DNA of 55,875 nt, from the NCBI GenBank assembly GCA_003252375.1, contig QKEJ01000195.1, positions 1 through 55,875 of the forward strand. The letters run 5' to 3'. Under the pieces are notes generated by a model, which made no database searches, was not told where the DNA came from, and worked only from the letters and a program-made list of their open reading frames with translations. Position numbers and translations under genes: made by a program. Below are positions 1 through 20,490 of the stretch, one piece after another. Origin of the DNA: Halodesulfovibrio sp. Its GTDB lineage: Bacteria > Desulfobacterota > Desulfovibrionia > Desulfovibrionales > Desulfovibrionaceae. Every line of letters starts with the position of its first letter. Within the stretch, counting starts at the first letter, position 1.

Positions 1-381
1 CACGGGGCCGAGATCATCGAGACCCATTTCACGCTGGATACCACCATCCCCGGGGGCGACCATGCCCATTCCGCGGACCCGGCCATGCTGCGCCGTCTGG
101 TGGACTCCATCGCGCTGTTCGAAACCATGCGCGGGGATGCGGGCACCTTCTTCCGCAACCGCCCGGACAGGGCCAATGCCGTCCCCTATCGGCGGGGCGT
201 GCACGCGAGCCGCCCCATCAAGGCGGGCGAGGTGATCGGTGAGGCGGACCTCATGTGCTGCCGTCCCGAACAGGAATTCGGACCGGCGGATACCGGACGG
301 CTGGTGGGGCTGCGCGCGGGAAGGGACATTGCCGCCCATGCACCCGTGCGCCACGACGATCTCAAGGCCGGGAAGGCGTAG
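1..381 (+). CDS. N-acetylneuraminate/pseudaminate/legionaminate synthase-like (NeuB family), C-terminal part with SAF domain; 5' truncated by window
   Basis: Frame 1 open from base 1: HGAEIIETHFTLDTTIPGGDHAHSADP... then SAF-like VHASRPIKAGEVIGEADL. Confidence 0.85.
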   Translation, partial: HGAEIIETHFTLDTTIPGGDHAHSADPAMLRRLVDSIALFETMRGDAGTFFRNRPDRANAVPYRRGVHASRPIKAGEVIGEADLMCCRPEQEFGPADTGRLVGLRAGRDIAAHAPVRHDDLKAGKA

Positions 382-392
382 GGGACGCCGTC

Positions 393-1064
393 ATGAAGGT
401 ACTCTGCGTGGTGCAGGCCCGGTTCGCCTCCGCACGGTTGCCCGGCAAGGCATTGTACCCTTTGGGGGACATGCCCATGCTGGCCTACCTGTTGCGGCGC
501 ATGGCCACGGTGTCGGATGCGGAGCATCCGCTCTGTCTGGCCACCACGCAGCGGCCCGATGACGACATCCTTGCGGCATGGGCCGGAGCGTTGGGGATTC
601 CCGTCGTGCGCGGGGCGCAGGACGACGTGCTGCAGCGGTACCTTGCCTGCCTCGACGCCTTCGGGGCGGATGCCTGCATCCGGGTCACGGGTGACAATCC
701 CCTGACCAGCCGGACCATGGTGCGCGGCGTGCGCGAGGCCCTGTGTCAAGGCTATGACTATGTGGACGGCTACAGCGACTGCGTGACCGGCACGGGAGTG
801 GATGGCTTCGGCGCGGACCTGCTGCGTCGACTGGACGCCATGGACCTTGCGCCCGGGGAACGGGAGCACATCAACAAGCGCGTCATCGATCATCCGGCGG
901 AGTTTTCCGTACACAGGGTTGCGGCGCCGGAGGCGTTGCGGCGGCGCGACGTATCCCTTACGGTGGACACCATTGAGGAATTCGTGCGGGTCAGGGACAT
1001 GGTGGCGCGTGTCTCCCGGCCCGTGGAAGCAACGGGAGCGGCTGATGTCATCGCAACGGCCTGA
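393..1064 (+). CDS. SpsF/NeuA-type cytidylyltransferase
   Basis: MKVLCVVQARFASARLPGKALYPLGDMPMLAYLLRRM; N-terminal nucleotide-binding signature RxxSxRLPGKxL. Confidence 0.85.
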   Translation: MKVLCVVQARFASARLPGKALYPLGDMPMLAYLLRRMATVSDAEHPLCLATTQRPDDDILAAWAGALGIPVVRGAQDDVLQRYLACLDAFGADACIRVTGDNPLTSRTMVRGVREALCQGYDYVDGYSDCVTGTGVDGFGADLLRRLDAMDLAPGEREHINKRVIDHPAEFSVHRVAAPEALRRRDVSLTVDTIEEFVRVRDMVARVSRPVEATGAADVIATA

Positions 1065-2028
1065 GTGGTTCAGCGCCCTCTATGCCGCGCTCGGCAGGCC
1101 CGGGACGGTGCATGTGCGGGTGGACGCGGGCAGGGTCGGAGGATTGTCCTACGGCCATCTGGAGCGATGCCGCATTCTTTCTGCCCTGCTGCGGCAGGAA
1201 GGCGCCACGACCCGGTTTTTCATGCGCCCCCTGCCGGACGGCGTGGCCCGGGCCCGGGAGTGCGGGGAAACCGTGCACCTCGTGGAGCCCGTGGAGGCAG
1301 ACGGCACCCCTTGGCTGACCATGTTTGCCCAGGCCGACGCGCTGGTGGTGGACCTGCCGTACGACCCGGAACCGGAGCTGGTCGCCCTGTGCGCGCAGTC
1401 CGCAGGAGGGGCGCGCCGTGTGGGGTGTATTGATGATTTCGGGCGAGATCTCCTTGCCTGCGACGTGGTGCTGAACTACAGCGTGCTGGCCGATCCGGCC
1501 GCCTACCCCCGCGCGGGCAGGGTTTTGCTGGGGCCGGAATACCTGATGATGGATGCCGCGTTTCAGGCGCTGGCAGCCGGGGCGGCCAACCGCAGCAATG
1601 CACTGGTGGTCACGCTCGGCGGTTCCGACCCAACGGACCTGACGCGGCGCATTCTGCCACGGCTTTTGGCGCATGACTTGCATGGTTTGCAGGTACTGGC
1701 CGTGCTCGGGCCGGGCTTCGGGGAAGGGGACGACCTTCTCGCCCTGGCGGAGCGTTCCGGCGGCAGGCTCGCCGTTTGCCGGGCGCCGGAGGCGCTGCTT
1801 CCCCTGCTGGCGGACAGTGCCGGGGTGATCTGCAGCGGCGGCAAGACCCTGTATGAATGCCTTGCGCTGGGAAAACCCGTGGTGGCCGTAGGCAGCACCG
1901 CGCGGGAGGCCGAGGTGATTGCGGCCTTTGAAGGCAGGGGAGACCTGGTTGGCGGGCTGGCCTGCTGGAATGAACAGGAATTTTCCGAATCAATATCCAG
2001 ACTGGTACGCATGGTAACTGATGATTGA
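1045..2028 (+). CDS. PseG-like UDP-sugar hydrolase / glycosyltransferase-fold protein
   Basis: VRVDAGRVGGLSYGHLERC, CIDDFGRDLLACDVVLNYS, LLGPEYLMMDAAF, VTLGGSDPTDLTRRIL, CSGGKTLYECLALGKPVVAV match PseG-type landmarks; overlaps upstream gene. Confidence 0.75.
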   Translation: MSSQRPEWFSALYAALGRPGTVHVRVDAGRVGGLSYGHLERCRILSALLRQEGATTRFFMRPLPDGVARARECGETVHLVEPVEADGTPWLTMFAQADALVVDLPYDPEPELVALCAQSAGGARRVGCIDDFGRDLLACDVVLNYSVLADPAAYPRAGRVLLGPEYLMMDAAFQALAAGAANRSNALVVTLGGSDPTDLTRRILPRLLAHDLHGLQVLAVLGPGFGEGDDLLALAERSGGRLAVCRAPEALLPLLADSAGVICSGGKTLYECLALGKPVVAVGSTAREAEVIAAFEGRGDLVGGLACWNEQEFSESISRLVRMVTDD

Positions 2029-3001
2029 GCAGTGTTCCGACATGATTCCGGCAGACGTGCGCGAGGCGCTCCTGCCCCTGCACGCCCTTTCCGAGGAACG
2101 GGAGCCCGTGACGAGCGAGCTGTACTCGCCCAATGATTTCTATGGCAATGCGCATGCCCTGAAGGCCTATCTGGGCAAGCCGGAGGGCTATGCCGTCAAG
2201 GCCGCCATGGAGCACAGCGCCGAACTTGGTCATGGCAACTGGATGCTCAACGTGCAGGCCCCGCTGCCTGCCGTCATTTCCATGAGCCCGTACCGTCATG
2301 CCTTCATCAGGCCGCATACCGACAAGCCCCTGTATGCCGTGGGTCCCTATGTGCACTACGCCCCGCATGCCCTGAGCGGGGAGCAGCTGGCCTTTGAGCG
2401 CAAGCGTCTGGGCAGGAGCCTGCTGGCCTTTCCCGCCCACTCCACGCACTACGTGACCTGCGAGCACAGCGTGGACCAGTTCTGCGCGGTGCTGCACAGG
2501 TTGGGAAGGGACTTTGATACGGTGCGGGTGTGCATGTACTGGAAGGACGTGCTCAACGGCACGGCTGCGGAGTACGCGCGGCGCGGTTTCGAGTGCGTGA
2601 CCTGCGGGCACATGTTCGACCTGCAGTTCCTGCCGCGGCTCAAGAGCCTCATTTCCCTGGCCTCCCTGACCGTGGCCAACGCCCTGACCACGGCCCTCGG
2701 CTACAGCGTGCACATGGGCATTCCCCATTACTATTCCCCGTCCATCATCGGCTACGGCTGTCAGGACGAGGAGACCTTCAGGATCATGCTGGGGGATTCG
2801 CACTGCAAGCAGGCCTCGTCGGACATCGTGGAGCTGGAGGCCGTATTCAGCGAATTTTCGGATGAAGTCACCCCCCGCCAGTACGAAACGGCGGACAAGT
2901 ACTGGGGGCTTTCCTCCGTTCTCGACAGGGAGGGACTGGCCGACCTGTTCGATGAACTGGAAGCCATGCACGGGGCCATGCACCCGCACAGGGCAGGATA
3001 G
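2021..3001 (+). CDS. conserved hypothetical protein in glycan cluster, possibly glycosyltransferase
   Basis: 326-aa ORF overlapping the upstream stop and co-directional; no motif I can name. Confidence 0.6.
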   Translation: MIEQCSDMIPADVREALLPLHALSEEREPVTSELYSPNDFYGNAHALKAYLGKPEGYAVKAAMEHSAELGHGNWMLNVQAPLPAVISMSPYRHAFIRPHTDKPLYAVGPYVHYAPHALSGEQLAFERKRLGRSLLAFPAHSTHYVTCEHSVDQFCAVLHRLGRDFDTVRVCMYWKDVLNGTAAEYARRGFECVTCGHMFDLQFLPRLKSLISLASLTVANALTTALGYSVHMGIPHYYSPSIIGYGCQDEETFRIMLGDSHCKQASSDIVELEAVFSEFSDEVTPRQYETADKYWGLSSVLDREGLADLFDELEAMHGAMHPHRAG

Positions 3002-3086
3002 CGGCATGGAACATCAGCGTGTGTTTGAGACGGGCGGCCGCGTGCCGCAGGAACATATTCCACTCTCTCAGGAAAAAGATACGACC

Positions 3087-4202
3087 ATGCGACATATAGA
3101 ACTCTCCCCCCCCTCGCTGGACACGGCGGAAAAGGATGCCCTCCTCAGGGTCATCGACGACAACTGGCTGGCCATGGGCAAGAGGGTGCGCACGCTGGAA
3201 GAAGCGTTCGCCTCGCTGCACGGCATCGGCCACGGGGTGGCGCTCAATTCGTGCACGGCCGCCCTGCATCTTTCCCTCGCCGCCCACGGCATTGGGCCGG
3301 GCGACGAGGTGCTGCTGCCGTCGCTTTCCTTTGTGGCCACGGCCAACGCAGCCATCTACGTGGGAGCGCGTCCCGTCTTCGTGGACGTTGAGGACGAGCT
3401 TGTCCCGCACATGAGCCTTGCGCTGGCCCGGCAGGCCATCACGCCCCGGACCCGGGCCATCATCACCATGCATTACGCAGGGTATCTGATGGACATGCGC
3501 CCGTGGCGCGAACTGGCGGATGAGCACAACCTTGTGCTGATCGAGGATGCGGCGCACGCCGCCGGGCTGGAAGGTGCCGGTCGCCACAGCCACGCCAGCG
3601 CGTTCAGCTTTTATTCCAACAAGAACATGACAACGGGTGAAGGCGGCATGCTGCTCGTGCATGACGCCGAGCTGGAGGCCCGCCTGCGGCTCATGCGTTC
3701 ACACGGCATGACCTCCACGACCATTACGCGGGATCAGGGCCATGCCTTCGGTTACGACGTGGTGGAGGCCGGTTTCAACTACCGGCTGGATGAGCTCCGG
3801 GCCGCCATCGGGCTGGAGCAACTGGCCCGCCTTGCCGAACGCAATGCCCGGCGCGTGGAGCTGACCGGCTTGTACCGCAGGCACCTCGCATCCGTTGCCG
3901 GTCTGGGCGTTCCCTTCTCACCGGCGTGGACGCAGTGCGGACACATCATGCCCGTTTTGCTGCCCGAAGGGGCGGACAGGCTGCAGACCATGATGCGGCT
4001 CAGGGAACAGGGGGTGCAGAGCAGCGTGCACTATCGCCCCATCCACACGTTTACCCAGTTTGCGGGCACGGCTGCGGACCAGCCGGTTCTGCCCATGACC
4101 GAGGCCTTCGGGCGCCGGACGCTGACCCTGCCGCTGCATCCGGGCTTGTCGGATGATGATGTGGCCTATGTTGTCGAGGCTTTGACCAACGCCCTCGGGT
4201 AA
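3087..4202 (+). CDS. DegT/DnrJ/EryC1/StrS family PLP-dependent sugar aminotransferase (alternative start 3006)
   Basis: IDDNWLAMGKRVRTLEEAFASLHG, CTAALHLSLAAHGIGPGDEVLLPSLSFVATANA, IEDAAHAAG, FSFYSNKNMTTGEGGML. Confidence 0.92.
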   Translation: MRHIELSPPSLDTAEKDALLRVIDDNWLAMGKRVRTLEEAFASLHGIGHGVALNSCTAALHLSLAAHGIGPGDEVLLPSLSFVATANAAIYVGARPVFVDVEDELVPHMSLALARQAITPRTRAIITMHYAGYLMDMRPWRELADEHNLVLIEDAAHAAGLEGAGRHSHASAFSFYSNKNMTTGEGGMLLVHDAELEARLRLMRSHGMTSTTITRDQGHAFGYDVVEAGFNYRLDELRAAIGLEQLARLAERNARRVELTGLYRRHLASVAGLGVPFSPAWTQCGHIMPVLLPEGADRLQTMMRLREQGVQSSVHYRPIHTFTQFAGTAADQPVLPMTEAFGRRTLTLPLHPGLSDDDVAYVVEALTNALG

Positions 4203-4219
4203 AGGAGACGTCGGCAAGG

Positions 4220-5287
4220 ATGGACAGGTACAGTATCGATCACCACAAGATGCACATGCATCCGGAGCGGCTGGCCGCCTGGCTCAAAGGGGAGCCCGTG
4301 GCCCCCATCTATCTGGAAGTTTCGCCCAGCGGGCAGTGCAACTGCCGCTGCCGGTTCTGCGGCATGGATTTTCTGGGCTACCGCAAGCGGATGTGGGATG
4401 CGGAGCTGCTCAAGGACCGGGTTGCCCACATGGGCAGGCTGGGCCTGAAGAGCATCATGTACGCAGGGGAAGGCGAACCCTTCACCCATCCGGAGCTGGC
4501 GGGCATCATCGAGCATACGGCCGCCAGCGGGGTGGATGTGGCCATCACGACCAACGCCATCCTGATGACCGAGGCGCAGAGCGAGCGCGTGCTCGGCAAC
4601 TGCTGCTGGATCAAGGCCAGCGTCAATGCCGGTTCTCCCGACGTGTACGGGTATGTGCACGGTGTTGCCCCGGAAAAGTACCGCGAGGTCATCCATAATC
4701 TGGAACGGGCCGCCGCCGTGCGTGCCCGGGAGGGATACCGCTGCACCCTGGGCATGCAGATGATCCTGCTGCCGCAGAATGCCCACGAGGCCACCACGCT
4801 GGCGGCCACGGCACGGGACGCGGGCATGGACTATCTGGTCATCAAGCCCTATTCGCAGCACCCCCTGAGCGGTAACTGCGAGTATGACGGGCTGACCTAC
4901 AGCGACATGCGTTCCCTTGCGGAAGAGCTGCAGGCCATGAACACGGAACATTTCAACATCGTGTTCCGCTGGGAGACCATGGCCCGGCTGGAACAGCCCG
5001 AGCGGGCCTACAGCCACTGCCTTGGCCTGCCCTTCGCCGGGTACATAGACACCGACGGCAACATGTGGGGCTGCCTTGCCTACGTCACGGACGAACGGTT
5101 CCTCTTCGGCAACATCCGCGACGAGAACCCGGAGGACGTGTTCTGGGGGCCCCGCCGGACCGAGGCGCTGCGCTGGGCTGCGGAGCGGCTGGACACCGGG
5201 GAGTGCCGGGTGAACTGCCGCCTTGAGGCCGTAAACAGCTACCTGTGGCAGCTTCGGCATCCGTCGCATCACGTCAACTTTATCTAG
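4220..5287 (+). CDS. radical SAM protein with C-terminal Cys cluster (SPASM/twitch-like)
   Basis: CNCRCRFCGMD contains CxxxCxxC; AGEGEPFTHPEL; C-terminal CRVNCRLEAVNSYLWQLRHPSHHVNFI. Confidence 0.88.
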   Translation: MDRYSIDHHKMHMHPERLAAWLKGEPVAPIYLEVSPSGQCNCRCRFCGMDFLGYRKRMWDAELLKDRVAHMGRLGLKSIMYAGEGEPFTHPELAGIIEHTAASGVDVAITTNAILMTEAQSERVLGNCCWIKASVNAGSPDVYGYVHGVAPEKYREVIHNLERAAAVRAREGYRCTLGMQMILLPQNAHEATTLAATARDAGMDYLVIKPYSQHPLSGNCEYDGLTYSDMRSLAEELQAMNTEHFNIVFRWETMARLEQPERAYSHCLGLPFAGYIDTDGNMWGCLAYVTDERFLFGNIRDENPEDVFWGPRRTEALRWAAERLDTGECRVNCRLEAVNSYLWQLRHPSHHVNFI

Positions 5288-5295
5288 GAGCGGTC

Positions 5296-6288
5296 ATGAC
5301 AGCATCCGATACGTCTGCGGCTTCCCTCGAGCATCTGCGTGAGCACGGGTTCGCCCTGCTTGAGCGCATGATCCTGATCCGGCAGTTCGAGAGCCGCGTT
5401 CAGGCGCTGTACGCCGAGCAGGAGATGCGCACGCCGGTGCATCTGTGCATCGGGCAGGAAGCCGTTCCCTCGGCCGTCTGCTCCTGCCTGCGGGATGCCG
5501 ACCATATTTTCAGTTCCCACCGGTGCCATGGACACTACATGGCCAAGGGGGGCGACCTGAACAGGCTGGCGGCGGAACTGTACTGCCGCAGTGAAGGGTG
5601 TTCCGGCGGCAAGGGCGGCTCCATGCACATCGTGGATGTGGAGCGGGGCGTCTGCGGCACCACGGCCATTGTGGGCGGCAGCGTGCCCATCGCGCTCGGG
5701 GCGGGCCTTGCCTCTTCCCTGCGGCGTGACGGCGGCGTGAGCGTGGCCTTTTTCGGCGACGGCGCATCCGAGGAGGGAACCTTTCACGAAAGCCTCAACA
5801 TCGCGGCCCTGAAGACGCTGCCTGTCATTTTCGTGCAGGAAAACAACCTGTACGCCACCAGTTCCCATGTCCGGAATCGTCAGGCGTATGATGGCGGTGC
5901 CAGCCTTGCCAGAGGCTACGGCATGCCCGCGTGCCGCATCGACGGCAACGACGCCGTGGCGGTGCATCAGGCGGCCCTGGAAGCCGTGGCCCGTGCCCGC
6001 AGGGGCGAGGGCCCCTCGTTCATCGAATGCCTGACCTACCGCTGGATGGACCATGTGGGGGCCGGAGACGGCCTTGAAAAGGGCTATCGCAGCCGCGAGG
6101 AGTGGGATGACTGGGTGCGCCGCTGCCCCGTGAAGGCCCTTGAGGAGCGCATTGTGGAGGCCGGTGTGGCGGACAGCGGACAGATTGCCGCCGTGTATGA
6201 ACGGGTGAACGGACGCGTGGACGAGGCCTTTGCCTTTGGCAAGGCGAGCCCGTGGCCGGGCGCCATGACGCTTTCGGAAAACGTGTAA
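5296..6288 (+). CDS. thiamine-pyrophosphate-dependent dehydrogenase E1 component, alpha subunit
   Basis: GDGASEEGTFHESLNIAALKTLPVIFVQENN TPP-binding motif; RCHGHYMAKGGDLNRLAAELYCRSEGCSGGKGGSMH. Confidence 0.92.
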   Translation: MTASDTSAASLEHLREHGFALLERMILIRQFESRVQALYAEQEMRTPVHLCIGQEAVPSAVCSCLRDADHIFSSHRCHGHYMAKGGDLNRLAAELYCRSEGCSGGKGGSMHIVDVERGVCGTTAIVGGSVPIALGAGLASSLRRDGGVSVAFFGDGASEEGTFHESLNIAALKTLPVIFVQENNLYATSSHVRNRQAYDGGASLARGYGMPACRIDGNDAVAVHQAALEAVARARRGEGPSFIECLTYRWMDHVGAGDGLEKGYRSREEWDDWVRRCPVKALEERIVEAGVADSGQIAAVYERVNGRVDEAFAFGKASPWPGAMTLSENV

Positions 6289-6300
6289 GGGAGAACGCGC

Positions 6301-7383
6301 ATGCCCTGGACCAGAATGCTTGCAGACGGCTACGCCAACGGCGCGCTTCCCGGCGCGGATTCGACGCAGCGCATGCTGACCTATTCGCAGGCGTTGCGGG
6401 AGGCGCAGGCCATGGCCATGGCTGCCGACCCCAACGTCATCGTCATGGGCGAAGGGGTGGATGACCCGGGCGGCATCTTCGGCTCCACGCTGGGATTGCA
6501 TACCGAGTTCGGCCCGGACCGCTGCTTCGACCTGCCCATTGCCGAGAATGCCTCCACGGGCATGGCACTCGGTGCGGCCGTTGCAGGGCTGCGCCCCATC
6601 TACGTGCATATGCGCATGGACTTCATGCTCATGGGCATGGACCAGCTGGTCAACCACGTGGCCAAGTGGCGCTACATGACCAACGGCGCGCAGAAGGCCC
6701 CGCTGGTCATCCGCGCGCTCATCGGCCGAGGCTGGGGATCGGCCGCGCAGCATTCGCAGAGCCTGCAGGGCATGTTCATGCAGGTGCCGGGGCTGAAGAT
6801 CGTCATGCCCGTCACCCCCATGGACGCCAAGGGGCTGCTGCTCTCCGCCATTGCGGACGACGGACCGGTCCTCTGTGTGGAGCACCGCTGGCTCTATTCC
6901 CGTCAGGGGCACACCCCGGAAGAGATGTATTTCGTGCCGCTGGGCAAGGGGGCCGTGCTGCGGCCCGGGCGTGACGTGACCATCTGCGCCCTGTCGCAGA
7001 TGGTGTGCGAGGCCCTTGCCGCCGCCGAGGAGCTTGCCGCCGAGGGCATCGAGGCCGAGGTGCTCGACATGCGCAGCGTGAAGCCGCTGGACGAGGATCT
7101 GCTGCTGGAATCCGTTTCCAGAACCGGACGGCTGGTGGTGGCGGACACGGGCAACGTGATGGCGGGCTGGAGTGCCGAGGTCGCCGCCCTGGTCCACGAG
7201 AAGGCCTTTGACCAGTTGCGGGGCCCGGTACAGCGCATAGGCCTGCCGGATATTCCCACCCCTGCGTCCTGCGTGCTGGAAGACGCCTTCTATCCCGGCA
7301 AGGAGGACATCAAGGCCGGCGTGCACCGGCTGCTGGCAAGAGATATGGCGCCGAACCGCAAAACGGGAGGAATCCATGGCTGA
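6301..7383 (+). CDS. thiamine-pyrophosphate-dependent dehydrogenase E1 component, beta subunit (transketolase-like)
   Basis: LTYSQALREAQAMAMAADPNVIVMGEGVDDPGGIFG...PIAENASTGMALGAAVAGLRPI; EVLDMRSVKPLDEDLLLESVSRTGRLVV. Confidence 0.92.
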   Translation: MPWTRMLADGYANGALPGADSTQRMLTYSQALREAQAMAMAADPNVIVMGEGVDDPGGIFGSTLGLHTEFGPDRCFDLPIAENASTGMALGAAVAGLRPIYVHMRMDFMLMGMDQLVNHVAKWRYMTNGAQKAPLVIRALIGRGWGSAAQHSQSLQGMFMQVPGLKIVMPVTPMDAKGLLLSAIADDGPVLCVEHRWLYSRQGHTPEEMYFVPLGKGAVLRPGRDVTICALSQMVCEALAAAEELAAEGIEAEVLDMRSVKPLDEDLLLESVSRTGRLVVADTGNVMAGWSAEVAALVHEKAFDQLRGPVQRIGLPDIPTPASCVLEDAFYPGKEDIKAGVHRLLARDMAPNRKTGGIHG

Positions 7384-8479
7384 GATCATTCTGGACGGAG
7401 ACAAGCTGCGCTGGCACAGGGAGCGCGTTGCCGCGCTGCTTGCCGGTGAACGCGTGGCTCCGCTGACCATAGACTGCGCCCTTACCCGGGCCTGTTCCTA
7501 TCGGTGCGTCTACTGCTACGGCCAGTTGCAGCACAATCCCGGCGAGGCGCTCTCCCGTGACGTGATCATGCGGTTTCTGGATGACGCCGCGGAGATCGGC
7601 GTCAAGGCGGTCAGCTTTGTGAGCGACGGGGAGTCCACCTGCAGCCCCCATCTGTACGAGGCCATCCTGCACGGCAAGGCCAACGGGCTGGATATGGCGC
7701 TGGGCACCAACGGCTACCTGCTGCAGGACGAGCGGCTGGAGGAGATCCTCCCCGCCCTGACCTACCTGCGCTTCAATATTTCCGCGGGCGAACCCGCCCG
7801 GTATGCCCAGATTCACGGCTGCGCCGAAAAGTGCTTCCACAAGGTCTGCAATACCATCAGCCAGTGCGTGCGTATCGTGCGGGAGCGCGATCTGGCGGTC
7901 ACGCTGGGCATGCAGATGGTCCTCATGCCCGATCTTGCCGACCAGATTCTTCCCCTGTCCCGGCTGGGTGCCTCGCTGGGGGTGGATTATCTGGTCATCA
8001 AGCATTGCAGTGATGACGAGGACGGTTCGCTCGGGGTCGAGTATGACCGGTACGATGCGCTTACCCCCCTGCTGGAGGAGGCCGAGGCCCTCAGCACGGA
8101 ACGCTACCGGGTGGCCGTGAAGTGGTCCAAGATCCGAACGGGCAACCAGCGCATCTATACCCAGTGCTACGGTCCGCCGCTCATTCTCCAGATGTCCGGC
8201 AGCGGCCTTGTGGCCCCGTGCGGCATGTTCTTCAACGAAAAGTACGCCCGGTACCATATCGGCAACATCAGCCAGACCCCCCTCAAGGAGCTGTGGCAGG
8301 GGGAACGGTACTGGGAGGTCATGGCCGATATCGCCTCCAGCCGGTTCAACGCGAACCGGGACTGCGGCACCCTGTGCCTGCAGCACAAGGTGAACGAGCG
8401 GCTGTGGCGTCTGCGACGCGGAGAGGAAGAGCTGCCCCCGGATCAGGGAGCGGAACCCATGCATGTCAATTTCATCTGA
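7376..8479 (+). CDS. radical SAM protein (paralogue of 4220-5287 product)
   Basis: CSYRCVYCYGQ CxxxCxxC; C-terminal CGTLCLQHKVNERLWRLRR...MHVNFI; starts within end of upstream gene. Confidence 0.88.
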   Translation: MAEIILDGDKLRWHRERVAALLAGERVAPLTIDCALTRACSYRCVYCYGQLQHNPGEALSRDVIMRFLDDAAEIGVKAVSFVSDGESTCSPHLYEAILHGKANGLDMALGTNGYLLQDERLEEILPALTYLRFNISAGEPARYAQIHGCAEKCFHKVCNTISQCVRIVRERDLAVTLGMQMVLMPDLADQILPLSRLGASLGVDYLVIKHCSDDEDGSLGVEYDRYDALTPLLEEAEALSTERYRVAVKWSKIRTGNQRIYTQCYGPPLILQMSGSGLVAPCGMFFNEKYARYHIGNISQTPLKELWQGERYWEVMADIASSRFNANRDCGTLCLQHKVNERLWRLRRGEEELPPDQGAEPMHVNFI

Positions 8480-8492
8480 GGGGAGGTCCGGC

Positions 8493-9953
8493 GTGAAGAA
8501 GTTGAAGCTGCTGCTGGTGTTGCCGAACTACCGGTGGGTCGAGGGCGACGCGAGTACGTTGTGGCAGATCATTCCCTACAATCTCTGTTTGCTGGCCGCC
8601 ATGGTCCGGGATGTCTGCGAGGTCTCCATTCTGGATGCCTACATAGCGGACATGACCCAGGACGAGGTGCGCGAGGCCATTGCCCAGCGGGCGCCGGACG
8701 TACTGGGCGTGACGGTCATGATGGACCAGTTTGCGCCGTCCGGTCATGCCGTGGCGGCCATGACCAAGGACGTGCTGCCCGAGACCGTGGTCCTCATGGG
8801 CGGGGTGTACATGACCGTGAACCCGCAGATCGCCATGCGGGATACGAATATCGACTACGGCTGCATCGGCGAGGGCGAATACGTCATGCGCGCCCTGATG
8901 CAGCATTTCACCGATGGCAGCCCCCTGCCGGAAAAGGGAATTATCTACCGGAAGGGCGACAGCATGGTGGATACGGGACGGTCCGATTTCATCGAGGATC
9001 TCAGCGCCCTGCCGTTCCCCGCCTATGACCTCATCGACTATCCCGCCTACGCCAACTCGGCGGACAGGCACAGTGTGGATTCCCCCCGGCTCTTCCCCTA
9101 CGGTCGCATCTTTTCCTCGCGCGGGTGCCCGGTGAACTGCGTCTTTTGTCAGGTAAAGTCCATTCAGGGCAGCAAGTTCCGTCCCCGCGAGGCGGAGGAC
9201 GTGCTGAACGAGATCGCCTGGCTCAAGGAGACCTACGGCATCCGTTCCCTGACCTTTGACGATGACAATTTCTTCACCAGCCGCAAGCGGGCCAAGGCCA
9301 TTCTCGAAGGGATGATCGAGCGTGATCTCGTCATGCCCTGGGTCTCCATCGCCACCGCCGTCTTCAGGCTGGACGAGGAGATGATCAAGCTCATGCGCCG
9401 CAGCGGCTGCCAGTACATCTGCATCGCCATTGAATCGGGCACGCGGCGCGTGGTGCGCGAAATCGTGGGCAAGCCCATCGACTTCGACCATGCCAAGAAC
9501 ATTACCCGCCTTGCCCAGAAGGAAGGCATCTTCGTTTCCGCCAACTTCATCATCGGCTTCCCCACCGAGACGTGGGAGGAGATTCGGGAAACCATTCGCT
9601 TTGCCGAGGAGATGGACCCGGATTACATGAAGCTCTTCCATGCCATTCCCCTGCGCAACACCCGTCTCTGGGAGCTGTGCGAGGAACACGGCCTCTTCAA
9701 GAAGGGCTTCGATCAGGGTGAGCTGCGCTGGAGCGCGGGGCAGATAGAGACCGACGAATTCATGTCCAATGACCTGACGGTGCTCAGGGCCTATGAATGG
9801 GACAGGATCAACTTCGGCCGGACCGACAAGCGGGAACGCATCGCATCGCAGATGCGTGTCTCCATGGAGGAGCTGGACGAAATCCGGAAGAAAACGCGGG
9901 CCAATGCCCACAGGCAGATAGCCCTTCAACTTGCAAGAGAGAGCAGGCAATGA
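8493..9953 (+). CDS. B12-binding-domain/radical SAM protein (GTG start assumed; alternative ATG at 8463)
   Basis: N-terminal LKLLLVLPNYRW...PYNLCLLAAMVRD cobalamin-binding-like fold; FSSRGCPVNCVFCQVKSIQG. Confidence 0.87.
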   Translation: MKKLKLLLVLPNYRWVEGDASTLWQIIPYNLCLLAAMVRDVCEVSILDAYIADMTQDEVREAIAQRAPDVLGVTVMMDQFAPSGHAVAAMTKDVLPETVVLMGGVYMTVNPQIAMRDTNIDYGCIGEGEYVMRALMQHFTDGSPLPEKGIIYRKGDSMVDTGRSDFIEDLSALPFPAYDLIDYPAYANSADRHSVDSPRLFPYGRIFSSRGCPVNCVFCQVKSIQGSKFRPREAEDVLNEIAWLKETYGIRSLTFDDDNFFTSRKRAKAILEGMIERDLVMPWVSIATAVFRLDEEMIKLMRRSGCQYICIAIESGTRRVVREIVGKPIDFDHAKNITRLAQKEGIFVSANFIIGFPTETWEEIRETIRFAEEMDPDYMKLFHAIPLRNTRLWELCEEHGLFKKGFDQGELRWSAGQIETDEFMSNDLTVLRAYEWDRINFGRTDKRERIASQMRVSMEELDEIRKKTRANAHRQIALQLARESRQ

Positions 9954-10645
9954 TCATCGGTATTGCGTATCCCCACCCGCCGTATGCGCTCAGCCGCGAG
10001 GAGCCCGTGTTCCAGGTGCTGGGCAGGCCCCACCAGTATTACGGGCTGGCCGCCTGCGAGGGCATTGTGGACAGGATGTACGTGCTTTCGTCCCGGGAAG
10101 AGGTGCGGGAGGCAGCCGCCGGGTTCGGATACACGATCATGCCGTGGGAGCTGCTGGACAAGGCGCAGGGCGTGCTGCCCGGGCACCAGATGACCAACGC
10201 CATGATGGATTTCATCAAGGCCGATCTGGGCATGGATTATGATGCCCTCATGCGGCAGAGCCTTTTGCATGTCAATCTGGCCAACGTCCTGCTCCGCAGG
10301 GAGACGCTGCTTGCCATGCGCGACGAGTTCCATGAGCGGGCCATTCCGTACCTGTATCTGGGCATGCCCGTGGGCGACCCCCTGGGCGTCATGGATGGCG
10401 ACGGAAGCATGGTCCGGGTGCTCAACGATGCGCCCATAGAACTGGAAGCGCCGTACCGGCCGTCCATGATGCGGTTCATGCAGGACACGAACTTCAGTTG
10501 CGAGGCCAACATAACGCCGGGCATGCCGCGCCACTTCGTCCACCGGGTGTCGGAGCTGGAAGGGCTGTGCGTGCAAAGCGAAACCGGGGCAAAGCTGGCA
10601 TCCTGCATTCTTCGGGAGCTGCCCGAGTATCACCTGTACACCTGA
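9950..10645 (+). CDS. conserved hypothetical, possible degenerate NeuA-like cytidylyltransferase
   Basis: ATGA overlap with upstream stop; FQVLGRPHQYYGLAACEGIVDRMYVLSSREEVREAAAGFGYTIMP resembles NeuA segment after the nucleotide-binding loop. Confidence 0.6.
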   Translation: MIIGIAYPHPPYALSREEPVFQVLGRPHQYYGLAACEGIVDRMYVLSSREEVREAAAGFGYTIMPWELLDKAQGVLPGHQMTNAMMDFIKADLGMDYDALMRQSLLHVNLANVLLRRETLLAMRDEFHERAIPYLYLGMPVGDPLGVMDGDGSMVRVLNDAPIELEAPYRPSMMRFMQDTNFSCEANITPGMPRHFVHRVSELEGLCVQSETGAKLASCILRELPEYHLYT

Positions 10646-10664
10646 TCAGAGAGGGGGAGAGCCC

Positions 10665-12962
10665 ATGCGGAAGATTCTCATCGTCAAGCCGGATTACCAT
10701 CACCTGCCGCTCGGACTGGCCTATGTGCTGGCCTCGCTGCGCGAGCACGGCATCCCCTATGAGTATGTGGATACCGTATTCGACCGGACCGCATGGGTGG
10801 ATCGACTGAATCTCGATGAGTATTTTGCCGTGGGCACCGGCGGCCTGTGCGGCGACGTGAACTCCATACGCCGCATCTTCACCATGGCCAAGGCCAAGGC
10901 GCCCGGCATTGCCACCCTGCTCGGCGGCAGCATCACCCATGACTGTCCCTCGCAGCTGCTCATGGACATGATGCCCGTGGACTACCTTGTCATCGGGGAA
11001 TGCGAATCCTCCATGCCCTATCTGCTGAAGGAGGTGGCAACCGGCAGCCCGGATCCGGACGTGCTGCGCGGCATTAACGGCATTGCCTTCAGTCAGGGCG
11101 GACAGGCCGTGAACACGCCGCCCGCCAAGCCCATTTCACTTTCCCGCAACCGCCTGTTCCCTGTCTGGGACGATATTTCGAATATCCAGTACTACATCAA
11201 CCTTGTGCGCGTTCCGGGGTTGCCCGAATTCAGCGGGCTGCCCGTGCTTACCGGCCGCGGTTGCACCGGCAAGTGCACCTTTTGCTCCCCCACACTGGGA
11301 AGCTTCCGGACCCGGCCGGTGGGCGAGGTGATGGAGGAGCTGCATCTGCACCATGAAAGCGGGTATGATTTCGACGGGTTTTTGTTCCTGAACGAGATGT
11401 TCTATCCTTCCCTGAAGGATGTGCGGGAATTCGTGACGGCGTATCGGGATTCCGGCATCAACCGGCCGTGGCAGTGCTCCGTCCGGGCGGATATGCCTCT
11501 GGAATGCCTCGAGATGATGAAGGACGCCGGGTGCGTGATCGCCGGCGTGGGGTACGAGAGCGGCAACAACGATATCCTGAAGCGGATGCGCAAGCGCACG
11601 AACACCGATCAGGTGCGCGCCTTCCTGCGCAAGGCCAAGGAGATCGGCCTGTACGTGTACGCCACGTTCATGTTCGGCTCCGAGGGTGAGACAGAGACGG
11701 AAATTGCCCAGACCATGGATCTGCTGCTGGAGGAAAAGACCTACGGCGGCGGGGCCTTCGTCACCATCTACCCGGGAACCGCCATCTACGACAACGCCTA
11801 CGAACGCGGGTTGTTCACGGATCGGAAGAAGCATCTTGAAACGCTGGATTTCTTCAACAGCGTGGTGGCGGGCAACATTCTCAAGCCCGAATACGTGAAT
11901 ATCAGCGACATCCCGGACACCTTCGAGTTGAACCGCGTGGCGCTCAGGCACTACAGCCGCTATCGTGGCGGCATCCATCGTCAGTTCAACGTGGAGGAGC
12001 CCGATCTCGCGGCGGGGACGGGTACCTGTCCCACCTGCGGGGCAACCGTTCCCCTGCGGTTCTACGTCAACACGCTGTTCACGGAGCACCGCTCCTGCCC
12101 GGAATGCCGGCATCCCGTCTTCATGGACTTTTACCACCATGGGCAGTGCCGGGAGCATGCTGAGGCCCTGCAGCAAATGCTGGACGGCAAGCAGCGGGTG
12201 GCGGTGATAGGGCAGGGCCCCAACAGCCTCGGGCTGCTGTCCACCAATGTCTTTGTGAAGGATCCCGATCAGGTCGCCATGGTCGTGGCAGAGCATGCCC
12301 TGCATGCGGACAACCGGTTTCTGATCCATCCCGTCCGGCCCATGGCCGAGCTGACCCCGGACAATGCGGACTGCGTAGTCATTGCGGATGCGGATTCCCT
12401 GCACGATACGGCCCGGGCTCTCATCGAGAAGGGCTTTGGCGGACGGGTCATGACGGCCCTGCCGCCGCAGTGGCCGGGCATGGTGCAGTCCATAAAGGAC
12501 GCCCTGCCCAATCCGTGGGATGTGGTCCGTTTCTCCTTCCCGCCGCCGGAGAATACGCACCAGTGCGCTCATCTCTACCGGAGCATTGCGGCGCATCTTG
12601 TGCGGGTGCACGGCGAGGGCACCCGGTGCTGTCTCGCCCCGGCCGGAACCTTTGCCATGAACATGGCCGAGGTGTTCGAGGCCAGCGGGCTGACCGTGAC
12701 GGCCTATCTGGACAACTACCTTGCCGGCGGAACGCAGGGCGGCAAGCCCCTGTACCGGCCCGGCGAGCTGGACGACCTGTCCTTTGCGGATGTCCTGCTC
12801 GTGGCCACCCCCAACTGCCATGCCCAGGAGGTCATCGCCCAGGGGCTGTATCAGCGGTTCGGCGAGGAGGCCAGACGCAAGGTGGTGCTGCTGGCCGATA
12901 TCTATCTGGAAATTTTCATCGATGATTACGGGCGGTGCATTGCCGCGCTCGAGAACGCATAG
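10665..12962 (+). CDS. B12-binding/radical SAM protein with C-terminal zinc-ribbon and Rossmann-like extension (765 aa)
   Basis: ILIVKPDYHHLPLGLAYVLASLRE; GRGCTGKCTFCSPT; CPTCG...CPECR; LAPAGTFAMNMAEVFEASGLTVTAYLDN. Confidence 0.85.
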   Translation: MRKILIVKPDYHHLPLGLAYVLASLREHGIPYEYVDTVFDRTAWVDRLNLDEYFAVGTGGLCGDVNSIRRIFTMAKAKAPGIATLLGGSITHDCPSQLLMDMMPVDYLVIGECESSMPYLLKEVATGSPDPDVLRGINGIAFSQGGQAVNTPPAKPISLSRNRLFPVWDDISNIQYYINLVRVPGLPEFSGLPVLTGRGCTGKCTFCSPTLGSFRTRPVGEVMEELHLHHESGYDFDGFLFLNEMFYPSLKDVREFVTAYRDSGINRPWQCSVRADMPLECLEMMKDAGCVIAGVGYESGNNDILKRMRKRTNTDQVRAFLRKAKEIGLYVYATFMFGSEGETETEIAQTMDLLLEEKTYGGGAFVTIYPGTAIYDNAYERGLFTDRKKHLETLDFFNSVVAGNILKPEYVNISDIPDTFELNRVALRHYSRYRGGIHRQFNVEEPDLAAGTGTCPTCGATVPLRFYVNTLFTEHRSCPECRHPVFMDFYHHGQCREHAEALQQMLDGKQRVAVIGQGPNSLGLLSTNVFVKDPDQVAMVVAEHALHADNRFLIHPVRPMAELTPDNADCVVIADADSLHDTARALIEKGFGGRVMTALPPQWPGMVQSIKDALPNPWDVVRFSFPPPENTHQCAHLYRSIAAHLVRVHGEGTRCCLAPAGTFAMNMAEVFEASGLTVTAYLDNYLAGGTQGGKPLYRPGELDDLSFADVLLVATPNCHAQEVIAQGLYQRFGEEARRKVVLLADIYLEIFIDDYGRCIAALENA

Positions 12963-12979
12963 CAACGGAAGAGACCATC

Positions 12980-14434
12980 ATGAGTCACGCCCTTCGCATC
13001 TTTCAGGATACCGCCCCCCATGTCCGGCCTCTCATCGAGATGCCCCATCATCCCCTGATGACCCGTTCTTCCGATTCGCTGTGCCTGCTCGGTTCCTGCT
13101 TTACCTGGCATCTGCACAACGAGGCCCTGCGGGGGCTGGGGCTGAACAGCATCTTTCAGTGGCACACGGGGTTCCATTTCAGCACGGAGTCCCTTGCCAA
13201 TCTTCTGGAACGCATCGCGGACGGCACGCCGCACGGCGAGGAGGACCTGTACTGGTATCCCGACGAGGTCGGGGGCTTCCGGCCGTTCCGGTATTATTTC
13301 AACCAGCGGTTTCCTGCGGAACAGAAGGACGACGTGCTGGCGCGGCTGGCCGTGCTGGACGGGGAGTGCGCCGCGGCGATCCGCAGTTGCAGTCATCTGA
13401 TGCTGGTTACGGGAACCCCCCGCGTGGTCCGTCTGCGCAAGACCGGCGAGTGCGTGGCCGTCACGGCGCGCATGCCCGCCGACGACTACGTGCACCATCG
13501 CAACTCGGTGGAGGAGGAAATCCGGAATCTCGAGCGGTACAAGGCCGCCGTGCTCCGCATCCGGGGAGGACGGCCGGTGACGATGCTCTACATGCTTTCC
13601 CCCATGCGCTACATGTTTCATGCGCTTTGCTCCGAGGGATGTTCGGAGGACCGTACCGATCAGGCGTCTCCCTTCATCGAGGACAGCCTCGGCAAGGCGA
13701 TCATGCGTGTGGCCCTGCACTCCTTTCTGGAGCGGCAGACCGGAGGAACCGACCACTATTTCCCCGCGTTCGAGCTGGTCATTGACGAGTTGCGGGCGCA
13801 TGAATCCTTCTGCGGCGATCATGCACACGTGCCGCATTTCCCCCATGTCAGCCATTACGTGGTCCGGCGATTTGCGGAAACGCACGCCTCGCGCGGGTTG
13901 CAGGAGCAGATGGAATTGTCCGAAGAGCTGGCCCGCATGGCGGAGACGGCGCGGGGTCTGTTGATGCCTGCCCAGAAAGCGGCGCTGCTTAAGGAGTTCG
14001 TCGCGACCCGGCTGCCCCGGCTCTGCGAGCTTGCAGGGGCGGACGAGGACGGGCGGCTGAATTCGTCACTGTTCCGGAGCGCGTTCCTGCTGCTCGGCGC
14101 ATGCGCCAAGGCGGAGCCGGACGAGGCTGCAGCGGCGCTGCGCGCGCTCTGCGACGCCATGCCCGGAGAAGTCCGGATCGCCATATGGGGCGCGGGCGGA
14201 AACTATGCCGAGATGTTTTCGGAAGGCGTGCGCCTGCTGGCGGACAAGGCGGCGCACTGTGTCCTGACGGACGGTTCGCCCGCAGCGTGGGGCAGGGAGC
14301 TGGACGGTCTGACGGTCGTGGCCCCCGAAACGCTGGCGGCCATGGATGTGGATTACATCTTCATCGCCTCCGCCTTCCACGACGATATCCACGCCCGTAT
14401 CCGACAGCTGGGGCTTTCTGCCCGGGTTGCCTGA
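12980..14434 (+). CDS. GSCFA-family protein with C-terminal Rossmann-like domain
   Basis: SLCLLGSCFTWHLHNEALRGLGLNSIFQWHTGFHFSTESL; C-terminal RIAIWGAGGNYAEMFSEGVRLL. Confidence 0.75.
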   Translation: MSHALRIFQDTAPHVRPLIEMPHHPLMTRSSDSLCLLGSCFTWHLHNEALRGLGLNSIFQWHTGFHFSTESLANLLERIADGTPHGEEDLYWYPDEVGGFRPFRYYFNQRFPAEQKDDVLARLAVLDGECAAAIRSCSHLMLVTGTPRVVRLRKTGECVAVTARMPADDYVHHRNSVEEEIRNLERYKAAVLRIRGGRPVTMLYMLSPMRYMFHALCSEGCSEDRTDQASPFIEDSLGKAIMRVALHSFLERQTGGTDHYFPAFELVIDELRAHESFCGDHAHVPHFPHVSHYVVRRFAETHASRGLQEQMELSEELARMAETARGLLMPAQKAALLKEFVATRLPRLCELAGADEDGRLNSSLFRSAFLLLGACAKAEPDEAAAALRALCDAMPGEVRIAIWGAGGNYAEMFSEGVRLLADKAAHCVLTDGSPAAWGRELDGLTVVAPETLAAMDVDYIFIASAFHDDIHARIRQLGLSARVA

Positions 14435-14450
14435 GGAGGAGCGTCCTCAG
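14431..14450. other. 20-bp inverted repeat (CTGAGGA-ggagcg-TCCTCAG) spanning both convergent stop codons
   Basis: perfect 7-bp stem; contains TGA of the + gene (14432-14434) and TGA of the - gene (14447-14449). Confidence 0.6.
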
Positions 14451-15019
14451 CGCAGATGCATGGCGTCCATCCAGTGATGGAGGATGGCGGCGTGCGCCGT
14501 CTCGGCCATGCCGTAGTCTCCGGCGCGGACGTAGCTGTTCAGGTCGCCGCTGCGGCGCAGCGGATTCTCGGCATCCATGGCCGAGAGCGTGACCACGATG
14601 CCGCCCATCTTCCGGGCGGCTGCAACCCCCTTGAGCACGTTGGGGGAACGCCCCGAGCTGCTGATGGCCACGAGCATGTCCCCGGGCTGCATGTGGAAGG
14701 TCAGCGGTACACTGAAGACCTCGTCGTAGCCGATGTCGTTGGCAATGGCCGTGAGCTGGGCAAGGTCCGTGAAGACCTCTGTGTGGATGCGGGCGTTCTT
14801 GCACAGGTCCGCAGCGAAGTGGCTGGCCATTGAGGCGCTCGCCCCGTTGCCGATGAGAAAGACCGTGCGGTTCTGTTCCCGGATGCGCTCGCACTGGGCG
14901 CACCACCATGCAAATCCCGCTTCATGCTCGAGAGCGGCCCCCGCACGTTCGGAAAACTGCATCGTTTCCAGCAGCTCGGCCAGCAGGGCCGTGCGTTCCT
15001 TCCATGTCTTCCCGTCCAT
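14447..15019 (-). CDS. SIS-domain phosphosugar isomerase (GmhA-like)
   Basis: VFLIGNGASASMASHFAADLCKNARI; DMLVAISSSGRSPNVLKGVAAARKMG. Confidence 0.85.
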   Translation of the reverse strand: MDGKTWKERTALLAELLETMQFSERAGAALEHEAGFAWWCAQCERIREQNRTVFLIGNGASASMASHFAADLCKNARIHTEVFTDLAQLTAIANDIGYDEVFSVPLTFHMQPGDMLVAISSSGRSPNVLKGVAAARKMGGIVVTLSAMDAENPLRRSGDLNSYVRAGDYGMAETAHAAILHHWMDAMHLR

Positions 15020-15022
15020 AGC

Positions 15023-15991
15023 TCATTCTCCAGCGGCGCGGGTGATTGCGGACCAGAGCATCGGAACGGCGTCCGCGTGCCGTCCCTTGTAGTAGTGGCT
15101 CTGCCCGTGACCGGCGACGGTCCTGTCCAAGAGGGTCTTCCAGGGTCTGAAATAGTATTGGGGAACGCTCTTGTCCGGTGCCGCGGAGGGAAATCCCGGC
15201 AGGTCCACGAGGTCGGTCACCAGGGTGGTGAAGCGTTCCACCGTGCGTCCCTCCTGCCCGGCGGCATTGCGGGCCATGGCCAGCCCCTTGAGGAAGATTT
15301 CCGGCCCCATCACGGCGCTGCCCAGATTCATGAGCACGCCGCCCTCCATCTGTTCGATGCAGTGGGTCAGGCGCAGGAAATCCCTGTAGCTGGCCGCGCC
15401 GAAGGCTGCTCCGTCCATGTTGGGGTGCTCGTGGATGATGTCGTAGCCGATTCCCACATGGCAGGTCATGAGCACGCCATGTCGCCATGCGGCGGCGGCA
15501 ATGCTGTGCTCCGCATGGGGCAGACCGGCTTCGGCAATGTGTCTGCCCACTGTCTCGCCCAGGCCCTGCCCAGCTGCGGCGCCACGGGTAACAATGTCGT
15601 TGAGCTCGCCTGTTTCCTGCCACAGGCCGAACTGGCCGTCCGCAATGTACCGGGCCACGCTTTCCGTGGTCGCCCCTATGAGCGCCAGCTCGAAATCGTG
15701 GATCAGCACGGCGCCGTTCACCGCAAGAACATCGATGAAGCCGCGGGCCATGAGGTCGATGAGAAAGCGCTGCACTCCGCTGCGGATGACGTGCGCGCCC
15801 ATCATCACGATGACGGGAGATCCTGCGGCCTTGGCTCTGACAACGGCCTCGCCGACCTGCTGCAGCGGCGCGGCGATTTCGGCCGGATGCGCCAGCGGCA
15901 TGACCACGGAAAGGTCGAGGTCGTGGGTCCGTTCGGCCAGCGGGCGGAGCCGCAGACGGGTTCTGTCGAATTCCTTGAAGGCGTGTTTCAT
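15023..15991 (-). CDS. deoxyhypusine-synthase-like protein of unknown function
   Basis: VIVMMGAHVIRSGVQRFLIDLMARGFIDVLAVNGAVLIHDFELALIG resembles DHS N-terminal SGVR...VDVLVTTAGG region; start codon overlaps end of HldE-like ORF. Confidence 0.55.
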   Translation of the reverse strand: MKHAFKEFDRTRLRLRPLAERTHDLDLSVVMPLAHPAEIAAPLQQVGEAVVRAKAAGSPVIVMMGAHVIRSGVQRFLIDLMARGFIDVLAVNGAVLIHDFELALIGATTESVARYIADGQFGLWQETGELNDIVTRGAAAGQGLGETVGRHIAEAGLPHAEHSIAAAAWRHGVLMTCHVGIGYDIIHEHPNMDGAAFGAASYRDFLRLTHCIEQMEGGVLMNLGSAVMGPEIFLKGLAMARNAAGQEGRTVERFTTLVTDLVDLPGFPSAAPDKSVPQYYFRPWKTLLDRTVAGHGQSHYYKGRHADAVPMLWSAITRAAGE

Positions 15992-17541: not shown

Positions 17542-18345
17542 TTACGCGGCGCCGTCGCTGCCTGCCAGAAAGTCCCGCGCCCGTTCGGCGCAGCGCATGG
17601 ACTCGGTGATGAGGCGCGGATACCGTTCCGCCGTGTGCTGGCCCCGGTTGCCGTGATGGCGGACCGAGTAGAGCACCTTCGGCAGGTGGACGAATGCGGC
17701 GCCGGCCATGGCCATGCGCAGGTAGTGGTCATAGTCGTTGGCGCTCTGGTACTGCTCGTCCATGAGCCCCACGCGATCATGCCACCGGGTTCTGTACAGA
17801 TGGCTTACGCCCAGCCGGTACCATTCCGCGAGGCTGGTGGTGAAATCGTATTCGGGCAGCCTGATCTGGCGCAGGATTCTGCCTTCGTCGTTGACGACGT
17901 TCATGTCGGAATAGGCGAAGTCCGCCCCCGTGGATTCCAACGTGGCGACCAGTTCCTCCACCATGTGCGGGTGGGGAAGGTCGTCCCCCACCACGTAGGT
18001 GCAGTAGTCGCCGGTGACCAGTTTCAGCCCTTCGTTGTACGTGGCGGTGGGGCCGATATCGTGGTCGAAGGTCAGGATGGTAATCTCGCGGCCCTGCTGC
18101 GGATAGGCATGCTCGGTTCTGCGGCGGATGGTGCCGTCTTCCGAAAAGCCGTCCACCGGGGTTTCCACGCGTTCGGCCACCTCGTCCCTGAGGCCGGCAA
18201 GGTACTCCTTGGTGGAGTCCGTGGAGCCGCCGTCAACGATGATCAGTTCGAGATTCGGGTAGGTCTGGAACAGGCAGTGGTCCACGCAGGCGGGCAGGTA
18301 TTCCCCCTGATTGAAGTTGGGGATGACAAGGCTGACTTTCTTCAT
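17542..18345 (-). CDS. glycosyltransferase family 2
   Basis: [45 protein letters not shown]. Confidence 0.93.
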
Positions 18346-20411: not shown

Positions 20412-20490
20412 GATGCTCTGCTGGTCTGGGGTGCGCGCGGCGGCAACAGGGTTGCGGGCCACGCAGGCGTCCGTTGTTTCGGCGCCGCGT

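Follow-up and report, generated by a model that had tools for sequence, protein, structure and literature searches.

A conserved association of a radical-SAM gene with ThDP-enzyme and heptose-type genes: a candidate branched-sugar module in Halodesulfovibrio

The stretch of DNA analysed here, referred to as the window, is a 55,875-nucleotide contig (QKEJ01000195.1) of a Halodesulfovibrio sp. genome that is fragmented into 203 contigs and is 86.5% complete. Its first 14,434 nucleotides carry thirteen co-directional genes, as the first-pass annotation had described. They are on the plus strand in one tight run, with gaps of -20 to +19 bp and a single gap of 85 bp. The run opens with a C-terminal fragment of the nonulosonate synthase NeuB with its SAF domain (1..381; Pfam, NCBIfam), which is cut by the contig end. 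This is followed by an SpsF/KdsB-type (CMP-type) cytidylyltransferase (393..1064; CTP_transf_3, 66 bits) and a PseG-like protein (1045..2028; TIGR03590, 90 bits against a cut-off of 153.6), an order that we take to be that of spsE-spsF-spsG in B. subtilis. A protein without a family (2021..3001) comes next, and then a DegT/PseC-like sugar aminotransferase, closest to PseC (3087..4202; Pfam/NCBIfam), which ends 17 bp upstream of the first radical-SAM gene.

The middle of the run holds the genes of main concern in this study. rSAM1 (4220..5287) encodes a SPASM-type radical-SAM protein and forms the core of the module discussed below. The alpha subunit of a thiamine diphosphate (ThDP)-dependent E1 enzyme (5296..6288; E1_dh, 239 bits, under the equivalog cut-off for pyruvate dehydrogenase [PDH]) has an intact GDG...N motif, and the beta subunit (6301..7383) carries the Transket_pyr and Transketolase_C domains. 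The beta-subunit gene overlaps that of a second SPASM-type radical-SAM protein, rSAM2 (7376..8479), with the C-terminus HVNFI. Further downstream are a B12-binding radical-SAM protein of HpnJ/BchE-like type (8493..9953; Pfam/NCBIfam), an orphan protein of 231 residues whose gene overlaps the preceding one (9950..10645), a long B12-binding radical-SAM protein with a zinc-ribbon-like stretch (10665..12962; Pfam/NCBIfam), and a GSCFA-domain protein (12980..14434; Pfam). Relatives of the protein at 8493..9953 with 45-58% identity adjoin rSAM1 in three other loci (best 80 of 134).

Pfam and NCBIfam agreed with the motif-based calls of the first-pass annotation for NeuB, the cytidylyltransferase, the PseG-like protein (weakly), DegT, the four radical-SAM proteins, the E1 pair and GSCFA. 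The call of a "degenerate NeuA-like" protein did not hold, as the two family-less proteins (2021-3001 and 9950-10645) gave no match to any Pfam or NCBIfam model. The AlphaFold model of the former (pLDDT 80) has a weak Foldseek match to TagF/GT-B (TM ~0.4), and its product is possibly GT-B glycosyltransferase-like. The orphan at 9950..10645 has one weak relative among 99 relatives and none in 297 genomes of the class.

The left end of the run lies inside NeuB, and the suspicion that the run extends beyond the window is probably correct. Another contig of the fragmented genome, C5 (L124), encodes a LegC-like aminotransferase and a NeuC-like epimerase at 1565-4298, followed by a NeuB gene broken by the contig end. 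On the basis of the two cut NeuB ends, C5 is probably the left continuation of the first gene of the window. Elsewhere in the window, minus-strand genes at 18342-20462 and 22676-23752 encode GDP-fucose synthase, GDP-mannose dehydratase and a second NeuB, which are part of a larger surface-glycan island.

Just outside the run, an operon of heptose-type genes on the minus strand (14447-17520) converges on the thirteen genes. It comprises a GmhA-like sugar isomerase of the SIS family, diverged from canonical GmhA (14447..15019; TIGR00441, 71 bits against a cut-off of 209), a GSU2086-family protein with distant likeness to deoxyhypusine synthase (15023..15991; NF052581, 365 bits against a cut-off of 250), and an HldE-like fusion of a nucleotidyltransferase with a PfkB sugar kinase (15988..17520; 163 bits against the HldE cut-off of 521). 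The HldE-like and GmhA-like proteins thus both score below the equivalog cut-offs of the canonical ADP-heptose enzymes, as does the SDR protein that recurs with them in other loci, and because of these scores the label "heptose" for the sugar of the module is one of family membership. The family motifs are largely kept (HxGH in 43 of 52 sequences, GAGD in 50 of 52, and SxSGxSxN in 51 of 53). A canonical HldE nucleotidyltransferase domain is encoded elsewhere in the genome (C106), so the HldE-like copy near the run is an extra one. In two relatives (G016 and G033), the HldE-like, GSU2086-family and GmhA-like genes stand in the same order and run straight into rSAM1. A GSU2086-family gene lies within 9 kb of rSAM1, beside the HldE-like and GmhA-like genes, in 11 of 85 loci (best 80 of 134 included).

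To define what travels with rSAM1, the window protein was used as query, and the best 80 of 134 loci were picked by similarity to it. Together with loci from related genomes and the window itself they form a set of 85, in which one contig is counted twice (L021/L044); a gene was considered to be near rSAM1 when it was within 9 kb. The hosts include Omnitrophota, deltaproteobacteria, methanotrophs, Paludibacterium, Vogesella, Campylobacterales, Planctomycetes, Lentisphaerae, Elusimicrobia, Methanoperedens and others. Clustering of the open reading frames of the best 80 of 134 loci yielded a recurrent set made up of an SDR, an HldE-like protein, a GmhA-like protein, rSAM1, a ThDP enzyme and rSAM2. 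In the typical order, rSAM1 is followed by the ThDP enzyme and often by rSAM2, beside divergent heptose-type genes; in these 80 loci, the heptose-type genes are mostly upstream of rSAM1 and the ThDP genes downstream. Among the 85 loci (best 80 of 134 included), a ThDP gene is near rSAM1 in 79, an HldE-like or GmhA-like gene in 57, rSAM2 in 38 and NeuB in 8. The 28 loci without an HldE/GmhA-like gene by the 9-kb criterion include the window, and some of them are cut contigs. In 59 related genomes, rSAM1 occurs in five and the HldE-like protein in six, including all five. The chance of such nesting is about 1e-6 (6 / C(59,5), calculated by hand) if the genomes are independent. Collectively, these results establish a conserved module and gene association of rSAM1, ThDP-enzyme and heptose-type genes.

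The same comparison bears on the pathway first proposed for the run, a single route to a modified CMP-nonulosonate in which the radical-SAM and E1 enzymes act on the nonulosonate or its precursor. The tight co-directional packing of the window genes is in keeping with that proposal, as is the presence of NeuB in the 8 loci mentioned above. However, the genes that co-occur with rSAM1 are the heptose-type ones instead, and the PseG-, SpsF- and GSCFA-like genes and the two family-less genes are near rSAM1 in the window only and in none of the best 80 of 134 loci. The PseG-like protein is, moreover, unique to the window genome among the 59 relatives. Co-occurrence of the radical-SAM and E1 genes with neuB/pseG-like genes, which had been set in advance as the deciding test, was therefore not what the loci displayed. 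Since the neighbours in relatives are heptose-type in 57 of 85 loci, assignment of rSAM1 and E1 to the nonulosonate pathway is unsupported, and we regard a single nonulosonate pathway as improbable. The NeuB fragment (1..381) is outside the rSAM1 module, and the nonulosonate genes probably belong to a pathway of their own within this glycan island. The DegT gene (3087..4202) could be assigned to either.

The ThDP enzyme of the module varies in type. Among the other rSAM1 loci, 75 of 80 (best 80 of 134) have a ThDP gene, of which 38 are E1, 30 are of transketolase type and 7 are of acetolactate-synthase type. With the window added, the 81 rows of the tree set hold 39 E1 alpha/beta, 30 transketolase-type and 7 acetolactate-synthase-type occupants and 5 loci in which nothing was recognised, 2 of these 5 being contigs under 5 kb. 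The transketolase-type occupants, many of them split, are accompanied either by a C-terminal subunit or by a short protein with a pyrimidine domain. All 138 ThDP matches in the best 80 of 134 loci are on the strand of rSAM1 and none is on the opposite strand; nearly all are within 6 kb downstream, and the gap from rSAM1 is below 150 bp in 41 of 74 loci. E1 and transketolase genes occur together in one locus only (85 loci, best 80 of 134 included). On the rSAM1 tree, a quick tree with many weak forks, the ThDP type switches at least 19 times, and close neighbours such as L025 and L027 differ in type. Nearly every occupant has intact ThDP motifs. Thus, three unrelated superfamilies are exchangeable in one slot.

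Two further features were seen near this slot. An acetolactate-synthase-type enzyme at L028:11615-14194 has a long N-terminal extension of cupin-like appearance and stands beside a DJ-1/PfpI protein. A 333-residue protein, F26, without a Pfam match (L015:13528-14529) recurs with a HAD-like protein directly upstream of the split transketolases in several rSAM1 loci.

The identity of the three superfamilies is informative. According to a 2025 review, use of a ketone as acceptor is known for no more than three of the nine ThDP superfamilies: the decarboxylase type, with YerE as example, the split-gene transketolases, for which it is proposed, and alpha-KADH2, to which E1 alpha/beta belongs (PMC12247030). 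The superfamilies in the rSAM1 slot are the same three that this review gives as known or proposed for ketone acceptors in branched sugars. The slot provides strong circumstantial evidence that the product is a branched or C-acylated sugar. In this respect, the earlier reading of an undescribed pathway to a branched or C-acylated sugar has gained ground, while its placement of the radical-SAM and E1 enzymes in a nonulosonate pathway has not.

The E1 pair of the window has paired alpha and beta subunits, an intact ThDP motif and no E2, as expected of an alpha-KADH2 branched-sugar carboligase, and its neighbours are sugar-nucleotide genes. A search for E2 (PF00198) gave no match in the window genome (86.5% complete), compared with matches in 10 of 14 control genomes. 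With no E2 found, the E1 pair does not belong to any dehydrogenase complex, and a PDH or 2-oxoacid dehydrogenase complex was rejected on the same ground. On its own, E1 alpha lacks specificity as a marker, as E1 homologues, including acetoin-type ones, are common in relatives. One could imagine that E1, by acetoin-like chemistry, makes the acyl group or aldehyde with which a sugar is acylated, and that its pairing with rSAM1 reflects a shared substrate only indirectly. The best scores of E1 alpha, which are against PDH families, and the frequency of acetoin-type relatives in the order agree with such a role, but E2 is missing from the matches of the window genome, unrelated ThDP types occupy the same slot, and the remaining E1 alpha proteins of relatives, which include the acetoin type and in some cases lie next to E2-like genes, form a separate, starred clade. 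We consider this role improbable. The window E1 alpha and the window rSAM1 each sit on long branches. Two relatives (L141:6345-13725 and L143:7301-13604) contain a second type of cluster without rSAM1, in which an SDR, HddC-like and HddA-like proteins, E1 alpha, E1 beta, DegT and a B12 radical-SAM protein are encoded. The E1 pair beside HddA/HddC-like genes is a second link to heptose-type activation.

The radical-SAM partner is highly conserved. Seven cysteines are invariant in all 86 rSAM1 members, namely those of the CxxxCxxC motif and C267, C285, C329 and C333; the latter four are consistent with one predicted auxiliary cluster. As judged from BtrN, such a cluster could plausibly take up the electrons when an alcohol is oxidised. 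Nearly all members end in H-x-N-F-I, a tail shared by rSAM2. A further family, rSAM4, found in loci such as L101, has the tail H-x-x-F-V. These conserved tails are possibly part of the active site. With the AlphaFold model of rSAM1 (pLDDT 92), the six top-ranking Foldseek hits are all chains of DesII (E 2e-17 to 5e-16), followed by SuiB and BlsE, and a profile search against solved structures ranked DesII best and BlsE next. By overall fold and nearest solved structure, rSAM1 falls with DesII-like sugar radical-SAM enzymes, and it scores 45 bits with the DesII model TIGR04426, for which the equivalog cut-off is 450. Of its TDP-sugar substrates, DesII converts one to a 3-ketosugar by deamination and dehydrogenates another (PMC11434129). 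By analogy, rSAM1 is predicted to be a ketosugar-forming enzyme.

As a counterpoint, SPASM-type radical-SAM enzymes also modify peptides. rSAM1 and rSAM2 might be maturases of a peptide, lipid or cofactor that have come to lie in a glycan locus by chance, as NCBIfam places both weakly near maturases such as TIGR04317 and the SuiB fold matches rSAM1. This is very improbable, however: the top match by both profile and fold is a sugar enzyme, with BlsE close behind, the constant neighbours across many phyla are sugar-nucleotide genes, and no family of short precursor genes was seen among open reading frames of at least 90 residues.

The explanation that we favour, at about even odds (a probability near 0.5), is that the genes at 4220-8479 and the operon at 14447-17520 form a branched-sugar module in which rSAM1 makes a ketosugar and E1 then adds an acetyl branch from pyruvate. 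First, the GmhA-like and HldE-like enzymes would make and activate a heptose-type sugar, the exact identity of which we infer from the enzyme families. Second, the DesII-like rSAM1 would oxidise or deoxygenate this sugar to a ketosugar. Third, E1 alpha/beta would decarboxylate pyruvate on ThDP and attach the acetyl anion at the ketone, so that a tertiary alcohol with a two-carbon branch results; this step is proposed because of the precedents of AviB1/B2 and KbDH. The product may then be tailored by rSAM2 and, in some loci, by a B12 radical-SAM protein, methyltransferases or DegT aminotransferases. Since glycosyltransferases adjoin, the sugar is presumed to enter a surface glycan. Elsewhere, a transketolase- or acetolactate-synthase-type enzyme would replace E1, with a different branch on the same acceptor. 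The nonulosonate genes (1-2028) would serve another pathway of the island. The substrate and the reactions of the module are inferred. Against the branched-sugar explanation, the heptose-type genes of the window are on the opposite strand from rSAM1 and E1.

The main rival of the branched-sugar explanation places the ThDP enzyme first. In that scheme, it would build the backbone, a sedoheptulose-type or 1-deoxyketose phosphate, the GmhA/HldE-like enzymes would isomerise and activate it, and rSAM1 would deoxygenate or epimerise the NDP-sugar without introducing any branch. The transketolase product sedoheptulose 7-phosphate is the substrate of GmhA. A transketolase of the module could yield a ketose phosphate that feeds the GmhA-like enzyme, and split transketolases stand beside GmhA/HldE-like genes in many of the best 80 of 134 loci. 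On the other hand, the E1 and acetolactate-synthase types share the slot and use 2-oxo acids, not ketose phosphates, and the ThDP genes come after rSAM1, the heptose-type genes mostly before it. We judge this order of reactions to be rather unlikely.

If the branched-sugar explanation is correct, it may extend well beyond the window. We tentatively suggest a widespread route to branched-chain surface sugars, in many bacterial phyla and some archaea, in which a radical-SAM enzyme would place a ketone on a heptose-type sugar and an enzyme of any of the three ThDP superfamilies would add its own kind of carbon branch. In the open-licence literature searched, no description was found of a module of rSAM1, ThDP and heptose-type genes. 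Judged by titles and term counts, none of its papers on radical SAM with branched sugar or ThDP appears to deal with the association seen here; no paper in it combined nonulosonic sugars with radical SAM, or radical SAM with heptose, lipopolysaccharide biosynthesis and gene cluster. ThDP-dependent sugar branching is known, and what is probably new here is the radical-SAM partner and the heptose-type precursors. Branched sugars of E1 type and transketolase type are known mainly from antibiotic pathways, the transketolase step being unproven. In the module, all three ThDP types are found next to the same radical-SAM partner, in surface-glycan loci that come from methanotrophs, Omnitrophota, deltaproteobacteria, planctomycetes and methanotrophic archaea. 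The module supplies many candidate ketone-accepting carboligases and perhaps a new sugar chemistry of radical-SAM enzymes, and its cultured hosts, such as Methylomonas and Paludibacterium, allow the glycan prediction to be tested.

Compared to known systems, the module exhibits several similarities and differences. First, DesII is the closest solved structure to rSAM1 by profile and fold and is a producer of ketosugars, but the two share about 20% identity, and rSAM1 has four extra invariant cysteines, the H-x-N-F-I tail and another gene setting. Second, AviB1/AviB2, Pau11/Pau12 and KbDH alpha/beta, which are alpha-KADH2 enzymes of Streptomyces and Kibdelosporangium antibiotics, are likewise E1 pairs encoded next to sugar genes. 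Homologues of AviB1/AviB2 are the E1 pair of the two-carbon branches in avilamycin and paulomycin (PMC4425429), and pyruvate is the source of the acetyl group (PMC4425429, PMC12247030). In these actinobacterial antibiotic pathways, the ketone that receives the branch is at C3 or C4, whereas E1 pairs of the window type are in surface-glycan loci of many phyla, with radical-SAM and heptose-type partners.

Third, YerE and ErwE, of yersiniose and erwiniose, are ThDP carboligases that act on a ketosugar of Gram-negative lipopolysaccharide, and their broad type, acetolactate synthase, occupies the slot in 7 rSAM1 loci (best 80 of 134). The window has E1 alpha/beta instead; the acceptor of YerE is CDP-3,6-dideoxy-4-ketohexose, and the available portions of the sources on these enzymes mention no radical-SAM or HldE-like partner. 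Fourth, the proposed role of the split transketolases of miharamycin and amipurimycin is to attach a hydroxyacetyl group to a ketosugar as a branch, and their type fills many rSAM1 slots. The review lists them for Streptomycetes only and gives their function as unproven (PMC12247030); the type is absent from the window.

Finally, the operon at 14447-17520 shares its enzyme families with HldE and GmhA of the ADP-heptose pathway, from which the window copies differ in being divergent, in having the nucleotidyltransferase-kinase domain order and in being additional to a canonical HldE nucleotidyltransferase. The gene set hldE-GSU2086-gmhA of the operon is the same as that of GSU2085-2087 of Geobacter sulfurreducens, which are among the genes that affect growth on electrodes (PMC5585712), an effect that fits a role at the cell surface.
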